In this document: positions 137 through 523 of the stretch, in pieces
Numbering within the stretch: position 1 is the first letter of the stretch
How the letters are laid out: every line of letters begins with the position of its first letter
DNA from: Psychromonas sp. SA13A
Lineage (GTDB): Bacteria; Pseudomonadota; Gammaproteobacteria; Enterobacterales; Psychromonadaceae
Direction of reading: 5' to 3'
NCBI RefSeq assembly: GCF_011378715.1
Contig: NZ_WTKU01000013.1
Coordinates: 1-64,000 of the forward strand
DNA length: 64,000 bases
The notes under the pieces: generated by a model
What the model saw: only the letters and a program-made list of their open reading frames with translations
Told to the model about the DNA's origin: nothing
The model's database searches: none
Position numbers and translations under genes: made by a program

Positions 137-254
137 TGCTTGGCGACAATAGCGCTGTGGTACCACCTGATCCCATGCCGAACTCAGAAGTGAAACGCAG
201 CTGCGCCGATGATAGTGTGGGGTCTCCCCATGCGAAAGTAGGTCATCGCCAAGC
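137..254 (+). rRNA. rrf: 5S ribosomal RNA, copy 1
   Basis: The body matches the gammaproteobacterial 5S pattern (GTGGTACCACCTGATCCCAT, GCCGAACTCAGAAGTGAAAC, GTGTGGGGTCTCCCCATGCG). The terminal helix is GCTTGGCGA (138-146) paired with TCGCCAAGC (246-254), close to the E. coli TGCCTGGCGG helix. It is followed ten bases later by a terminator hairpin. The exact mature ends are estimated from the helix. Confidence 0.95.
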
Positions 255-263
255 GCCTAATTC

Positions 264-291
264 AAAACCCCAGTCCAATGACTGGGGTTTT
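264..291 (+). terminator. Terminator hairpin after 5S copy 1
   Basis: AAAACCCCAGT (264-274) pairs perfectly with ACTGGGGTTTT (281-291) around a six-base loop, giving an 11-bp stem that ends in a T run. It lies between the two 5S genes, so copy 2 and tRNA-Thr depend on readthrough, antitermination or their own promoter. Confidence 0.8.
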
Positions 292-321
292 AATATTTAT
301 AACGCTATAAATATAAGATTT

Positions 322-439
322 TTTCTGATAATAATAGCGCTGTGGTACCACCTGATCCCATGCCGAACTCAGAAGTGAAACGCAGCTGCGCCGATGATAG
401 TGTGGGGTCTCCCCATGCGAAAGTAGGTCATTATCAGAT
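322..439 (+). rRNA. rrf: 5S ribosomal RNA, copy 2 with replaced terminal helix
   Basis: From 335 to 430 this copy appears identical to copy 1 at a constant offset of 185 bases. Outside that core both strands of helix I differ: CTGATAA-type sequence (324-331) pairs with TTATCAGA (431-438). All eight positions still pair in the canonical register, and T332-A430 adds a pair that copy 1 lacks. A decaying pseudogene would not be expected to keep pairing while replacing both arms, so a functional variant is likely. tRNA-Thr starts nine bases downstream. Confidence 0.85.
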
Positions 440-447
440 CCCCATTT

Positions 448-523
448 GCTGATATGGCTCAGTTGGTAGAGCGCACCCTTGGTAAGGGTGAGGTCGGCGG
501 TTCAAATCCGCCTATCAGCACCA
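448..523 (+). tRNA. tRNA-Thr (anticodon GGT)
   Basis: A 76-base cloverleaf with encoded CCA. The acceptor stem is GCTGATA with TATCAGC, the D arm GCTC/GAGC, and the anticodon stem CACCC/GGGTG around TTGGTAA. The anticodon GGT is at 481-483. The T arm is GGCGG-TTCAAAT-CCGCC and the discriminator is A. In E. coli rrnD a GGU threonine tRNA also sits among duplicated distal 5S genes, so the linkage looks conserved. Confidence 0.97.

Follow-up and report, generated by a model that had tools for sequence, protein, structure and literature searches.

A second 5S rRNA gene before tRNA-Thr in Psychromonas, with its genome's core sequence and a separately changed, paired helix I

The 5S rRNA gene nearest to tRNA-Thr(GGU) in Psychromonas sp. 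SA13A (copy 2, or 5S-2) is very probably a functional, long-lived extra 5S gene that forms part of a tRNA-Thr (rrnD-like) rRNA operon; this joint reading, drawn from sequence, would have the core subject to conversion and the arms of the terminal stem drifting in pairs. Helix I of copy 2 has a lineage of its own tied to its place in the operon, its changes are almost solely paired transitions, and a U.G state is still present among its relatives. The window, a stretch of 64,000 nucleotides, is the start of contig C5 of this draft genome (G000), and the contig begins just upstream of the first 5S gene (copy 1). The features concerned are as follows:

138..255, + strand: 5S copy 1, with the canonical helix I GCTTGGCGA/TCGCCAAGC; cmscan match to RF00001 of 100.2 bits at 139-254
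264..291, + strand: terminator-like hairpin between both 5S genes, 12 pairs followed by a T-rich tail; fold z of -5.58 for 255-300
323..440, + strand: 5S copy 2 (5S-2), core same as copy 1; cmscan match to RF00001 of 96.9 bits at 324-439
324..332, + strand: 5' arm of copy 2 helix I, TCTGATAAT, from sequence, fold, and pairing table
430..438, + strand: 3' arm of copy 2 helix I, ATTATCAGA, from sequence, fold, and pairing table
448..523, + strand: tRNA-Thr(GGU) gene, from ARAGORN; single match in G000 with the pattern used

One core and two terminal stems

Copy 2 clears the RF00001 gathering cut-off (96.9 against 38 bits), with model positions 1-120 covered. The two cores (148-246 and 333-431) match at all 99 bases, in agreement with the first-pass annotation, which had described them as alike base for base; its statement that both arms of helix I are changed in copy 2 is likewise correct, as 10 of the 16 sites at paired positions 2-9 differ between the copies, all by transitions (12 transitions and 1 transversion once positions 1 and 10 are added). 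In copy 1, GCTTGGCGA (138-146) pairs with TCGCCAAGC (246-254); in copy 2, helix I is closed and joins both ends, with all nine pairs between TCTGATAAT (324-332) and ATTATCAGA (430-438) of Watson–Crick type. Pairing is therefore kept, as had been claimed, but the claim of an unaltered register needs amendment: copy 2 lacks the outermost pair of copy 1 and has a U-A pair at position 10, where copy 1 has an inner C.A mismatch; the nine-pair helix of copy 2 thus lies one pair further inward. The predicted fold of copy 2 is that of a normal 5S (minimum free energy of -37.7 vs. -45.5 kcal/mol for copy 1), and for each copy 1 of 200 shuffles folds equally well.

Both 5S genes precede tRNA-Thr in the window, an order other than the 5S, tRNA-Thr, 5S of E. 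coli; the 23S genes of this assembly lie on separate short contigs outside the window. Five Rfam 5S matches occur in the genome, namely the two in the window and one each on C51, C9, and C36, and a sixth, partial 5S is a 29-base piece at the edge of C17. The C51 gene has the same arms as copy 1, the C36 gene is cut by the contig end, and the C9 gene is one base off copy 1, which leaves an A.C mismatch in helix I (GCTTGACGA vs. TCGCCAAGC). Five cores of the genome are identical over 99 bases. Unpaired decay in other 5S genes, raised beforehand as a sign against maintained folding, amounts here to that one position on C9, the rest of the readable copies being paired. The C9 gene (L004:1499-1617, reverse strand) may represent an intermediate or early decay. 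Separately, repeated units that combine the 3' end of a 5S (CATCGCCAAGC, or its complement) with a terminator-like hairpin lie next to some of the other 5S genes in this genome (L002:300-680, L004:1080-1500, L005:1140-1500); these look like degenerate 5S-terminator arrays such as those reported for Pseudoalteromonas in an excerpt of PMC7812874.

Querying with an 18-base copy-2 motif returned three exact matches, two of them in P. arctica DSM 14288 and Psychromonas sp. 14N.309. The third (Bathymodiolus gill symbiont, L039) has no 5S around it and was dismissed as chance.

Copy 2 across the genus

Among 24 genomes of the genus, searched for tRNA-Thr(GGU) by exact pattern, 18 have one match each and none has more than one. 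A variant-arm 5S gene lies directly upstream of this tRNA in 17 of the 18, so absence from relatives, named beforehand as a refuting outcome, is not what is seen; both arms are readable in 14 of these genomes and the 3' arm alone in three (G003, G015, G016). The 18th genome (G017) contains a decayed 5S at the copy-2 position, with an alignment score of 63, against 26 for the best of 2000 shuffles and 18 for the best of 11 other windows. G017 is a long-branch genome, and its remnant lies on the reverse strand of L165, no more than about 150 bases upstream of tRNA-Thr. Since G017 has lost the gene, copy 2 is dispensable. Six assemblies (G002, G004, G005, G007, G014, G020) gave no tRNA-Thr(GGU) match, even with 2 mismatches (judged by eye); they are therefore uninformative on copy-2 loss and were not counted as losses.

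The order 23S, 5S, 5S, tRNA-Thr was recovered in all four genus genomes assembled in one or two contigs (L012, L018, L019, L020), and it is in these four that the rrnD-type operon end, with 23S, 5S genes, and tRNA-Thr(GGU), was seen in full.

A search for 5S cores across the genus gave 112 matches, 25 of which were dropped before counting: copies cut by a contig end (including the 5S-2 of G003, G015, and G016), short fragments covering core positions 24-67, the divergent copy on contig C259 of G013, and late-starting core matches (including a copy of G015 and copies of G012 and G022). The 87 retained comprise 70 copies of the main class, 14 of 5S-2, and 3 of a class with CTAG arms; alignment A2 holds 29 of their 37 distinct sequences (all 13 distinct 5S-2, all 3 CTAG, and 13 of 21 main class). 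Six arm types are represented among the 14 full-length 5S-2 genes:

TTCTGATAAT/ATTATCAGAT: six genes
TTCTGATAAT/ATTGTCAGAT: two genes, with a U.G pair
TTCTGACAAC/ATTGTCAGAT: two genes
TTCTGATGAC/ATCATCAGAT: two genes
TTCTGACGAC/ATCGTCAGAT: one gene
TTTTGACAAT/ATTGTCAATC: one gene

Pairs 3-9 are formed in all 14, pair 2 in 13, pair 10 in nine, and the outermost pair in none. The 70 main-class copies keep pairs 1-9, the single broken cell being the C9 copy of the present genome. The 5' arms of 5S-2 are graded (CTGACGA, CTGACAA, CTGATGA, CTGATAA), and CTGATAA occurs with either TTGTCAG (U.G) or TTATCAG. Compared with the main class of the same genome at paired positions 2-9, 5S-2 arms differ by transitions alone in 12 of 13 comparisons; the exception, G011, has 5 transitions and 1 transversion. 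The covariation score of the 5S-2 arms (0.205 vs. a shuffle mean of 0.108) was reached in 0 of 500 shuffles and lies above all six slid controls, and with the other classes added the score is 0.545 vs. 0.307, again reached in 0 of 500. The count of pairs with double changes is less extreme, being reached by 23 and 37 of 500 shuffles in two tests. Further pair types are not in excess (485 and 500 of 500 shuffles showed as many in two tests), as expected where AU/GC exchange is mainly used.

The CTAG class consists of 5S genes in G005, G006, and G022 with GTCTAGTAA or GTCTAGCAA plus TTGCTAGAC; positions 1-9 are paired, differences from the main class are transitions alone, and the cores differ from those of their own main class at 6, 6, and 0 positions. 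The late-starting copy of G015 also has CTAG arms and is uncounted. No tRNA-Thr start was present within 300 bases downstream of any CTAG copy in these four genomes. In G013, a divergent gene (L103:252-349) has a core identity of 82% and arms GATTGGCAAT/ATTGCCAACA whose stem is mostly still paired, and no rRNA spacer was recognized by eye beside it. In four genomes (G006, G022, G015, G023), 5S fragments (core 24-64 or 24-67) run into a hairpin-like insert that is similar in each case (GTTCAAGGGACT), after which comes the next core part (L108:513-556, L138:425-468, L160:533-573, L127:917-957, L142:721-764); from their sequences, the fragments with the shared insert look like 5S remnants.

It is hard to reconcile these patterns with copy 2 being a silent pseudogene young enough to look intact, and we consider that reading extremely improbable. 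The terminator-like hairpin upstream would suit it, as would the degenerate 5S remnants behind other 5S genes of the genus, of a kind also known elsewhere (PMC7812874, in part), but pairs 3-9 survive several double changes in every one of the 14 copies, and copy 2 has the operon on one side and, on the other, the one tRNA-Thr(GGU) gene detected. The intact 23S-5S-5S-tRNA order in the long-contig genomes makes silence less likely still.

Separate histories of core, arms, and tRNA acceptor stem

Distances were compared in the 10 genomes with both full-length classes, with the close sisters G009 and G019 treated as independent. Between copies of the same genome the core differs at 0-4 positions (mean 1.7 of 96), as opposed to 5.9 between genomes for 5S-2, and none of 20,000 random re-pairings (kinship ignored) gave so low an own-genome core distance. 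The arms behave in the opposite way, differing at 10.7 of 20 sites within a genome and at 3.0 between genomes. Cores are identical in four of the 10 (G000, G008, G010, G011) and show 2-4 differences in the other six. Cores thus track the genome and arms track gene position; the core pattern is concerted evolution. The first-pass annotation had proposed selection for a folded 5S, or gene conversion limited to the core. Pairing, covariation, and the core and arm distances uphold selection on folding and a homogenization confined to the core, with gene conversion as its presumed agent, and the data support selection on pairing together with core conversion.

The mechanism we favor begins with gene conversion, the usual homogenizing process, which would copy the core between 5S genes. 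Conversions that swapped one arm alone would break helix I and be removed by selection; the arms of the extra copy would thus escape homogenization and drift under the single demand of pairing. Drift toward A and T could then yield the CTGATA arm, and its likeness to the tRNA would be coincidence.

An rpoB tree of 22 genomes (G001 and G012, which gave no match, were left out) was rooted at its midpoint, on the long G017 branch. It contains a 15-genome clade (support 99/97); outside this clade are G016, the pair G004/G011, and the group G008/G010/G013, whose mutual order the tree does not settle. Pair 7 of 5S-2 is C-G outside the clade in the genomes with both arms readable (G008, G010, G011, G013); of G016 just the 3' side can be read, and it is G. 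Among the clade members, 10 have a readable copy, and pair 7 there is U-A, or U.G in the case of G009 and G019; for G003 and G015, also inside, pair 7 was judged from the 3' arm. C-G is also the main-class state of this pair. Where they can be read, arms from outside the clade show CTGAC or TTGAC, and TCGTTAG in the G017 remnant is compatible with an arm of the CTGACGA type. Given this distribution, the main-class state, and the remnant, the most likely origin of the tRNA-like CTGAT is within the genus, through single paired steps.

The identity of CTGATA/TATCAG with the acceptor stem of the adjacent tRNA-Thr, pointed out in the first-pass annotation, is real, and a local recombination origin of the arms had been proposed from it. 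Copying from the acceptor stem, whether by local recombination or by template switching, gains from the fact that CTGATA is common to the tRNA 5' arm, in register, in 8 of 14 genomes scored, that of the window included, and that a random 10-mer of 60% A+T has six bases of GCTGATA in only 0.24% of draws. When the purine/pyrimidine order of the normal arm is held, however, the chance of a six-base match is 2.1%. The other six genomes match fewer of the 6 bases (4 in G010 and G011; 5 in G006, G008, G013, and G021), and arms outside the 15-genome clade of this midpoint-rooted tree have 4-5 of the 6 tRNA bases, with the main-class C-G at pair 7 where the clade has U-A or U.G. The G017 remnant TCGTTAG also departs from the tRNA. 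A genome of another family, G052, has CTGATG arms (GTCTGATGAC/ATCGTCAGAC) in 4 of the 5 copies read at loci without tRNA-Thr (213-238 bases downstream for those four); the fifth is an extra copy with GTCTGGTGAC, and the copy before tRNA-Thr also carries GTCTGATGAC/ATCGTCAGAC. The stepwise arms, the fewer tRNA bases outside the clade, the G052 arms, and the roughly 2% chance match speak against an acceptor-stem origin, to which we attach a very small probability; the tRNA likeness requires no special cause. An alternative hairpin that would join TATCAG of the copy-2 3' arm to CTGATA of the tRNA 5' arm was also set aside: it is weak (z of -1.44, with 15 of 200 shuffles as good), does not form when the whole stretch is folded to minimum energy, and loses length in G011 (TTGTCAATCC).

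Expression, extra 5S genes beyond the genus, and significance

Copy 2 sits between a terminator-like hairpin and the sole tRNA-Thr(GGU) gene found. The hairpin at 264-291 is the one such site detected, against 0.7 expected in shuffles, and it is seen by eye at the same spacer place in all 13 genus genomes with a readable spacer. The promoter-like sites in positions 1-800 (3 in all, with 2.2 expected in shuffles) include none on the + strand, and a promoter between hairpin and copy 2 was rejected for want of a + strand site; TATAAT-like words, visible by eye in many spacers, were discounted because the stretch is very AT-rich. The question of copy-2 expression may be set beside E. coli rRNA operons (PMC8144298, in part). 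Copy 2 is most likely cotranscribed with the tRNA, and its predicted product is an ordinary, somewhat less stable 5S rRNA. An excerpt of PMC7283268 describes an E. coli strain without free 5S rRNA as viable, which by analogy would fit a loose demand on 5S ends; the sequence of helix I is a separate matter. The putative upstream terminator, the lack of a + strand promoter-like site in 1-800, the loss of the gene in G017, the C9 mismatch, and the non-identical cores in 6 of 10 genomes count against the functional, co-evolving extra gene that we prefer.

The hairpin also bears on the suggestion that copy 2 is a specialized 5S, matured or used differently, for example when the tRNA end of the operon alone is transcribed. 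That 17 of 18 genomes keep it, with distinct arms, and that it lies behind the hairpin speak for such a role, and PMC5179076, in part, describes the tRNA genes at the 3' end of E. coli rrn operons as apparently having promoters of their own. But in 4 of 10 genomes copy 2 and the main class share one and the same core, the arms vary among species with pairing as the visible common demand, and the gene has decayed in G017; specialization is accordingly judged unlikely.

Extra 5S genes were also examined at 13 loci outside the genus with two readable 5S genes (L029, whose first 5S is cut, was left out). These loci were drawn from matches to the 5S-2 region of the window and partly picked for arm similarity, so the shares given here are not order-wide estimates. 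Nine contain tRNA-Thr, including E. coli rrnD; in the remaining four, the locus has a 5S pair and no tRNA-Thr. Helix I of the extra copy differs in 12 of the 13, and in 8 of the 9 with tRNA-Thr (the exception being G028); every copy pairs 9 of 9. Differences occupy 54 of 234 arm sites vs. 37 of 1258 core sites, and 46 of the 54 arm differences are transitions. In nine more outside tRNA-Thr loci, some lying at a contig end, the stretch read contained just one 5S.

A close parallel is the rrnD end of E. coli (rrfD, thrV encoding tRNA-Thr GGU, rrfF), where a tRNA-Thr operon likewise contains an extra 5S whose core is near-identical to its neighbor (1 difference in 97) and whose helix I change is compensated: in rrfF (GTCTGGCGG/CTGCCAGAC), a C-G pair of rrfD (GCCTGGCGG/CTGCCAGGC) is replaced by U-A. 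The extra 5S of E. coli lies downstream of the tRNA, whereas the one here lies upstream of it, behind a terminator-like hairpin; one pair is changed there, and five pairs, on both sides, among positions 2-8 here. Several 5S types per genome with homogenized cores are also features of intragenomic 5S heterogeneity and of concerted evolution of rrn operons, from which the present case differs in that the changes cluster in a single terminal stem and go with operon position. Pei and others reportedly surveyed 5S diversity within prokaryotic genomes in 2012.

The mode of change is also familiar. An excerpt of PMC3433437 counts AU/GC exchange as the most frequent compensatory change in 5S (199 of 299) and places helix I among its main bacterial sites; AU/GC exchange, GU intermediates, and the prominence of helix I recur here, in paralogues within one genome where the excerpted work compares species. 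Extra 5S-like units, each behind a putative terminator, lie at distal rRNA operon ends in Pseudoalteromonadaceae and Peptococcaceae (PMC7812874, in part), and unlike copy 2 those units are decayed. No published description of the present pattern was recognized among the matches listed, subscription literature being mostly outside their scope.

These data represent a strong example of ordinary, known RNA evolution and no new kind of system. One further reading is that the extra 5S of tRNA-Thr operons, with a helix I unlike its neighbor's in 8 of 9 outside tRNA-Thr loci read and in all 10 genus genomes compared, is a position-bound paralogue, kept for expression or maturation under a control different from that of the main 5S genes. 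We give this little credence; if true, the copy-2 stem would be a natural tag of a second ribosome population. What the genus offers is a clean natural record of stem rewriting, with a uniform core per genome, arms drifting in pairs, and a U.G intermediate still carried by two sister genomes (G009, G019). The arm differences also allow copy-specific 5S probes, with CTGATAAT as the predicted copy-2 end, making the expression of single 5S genes measurable.
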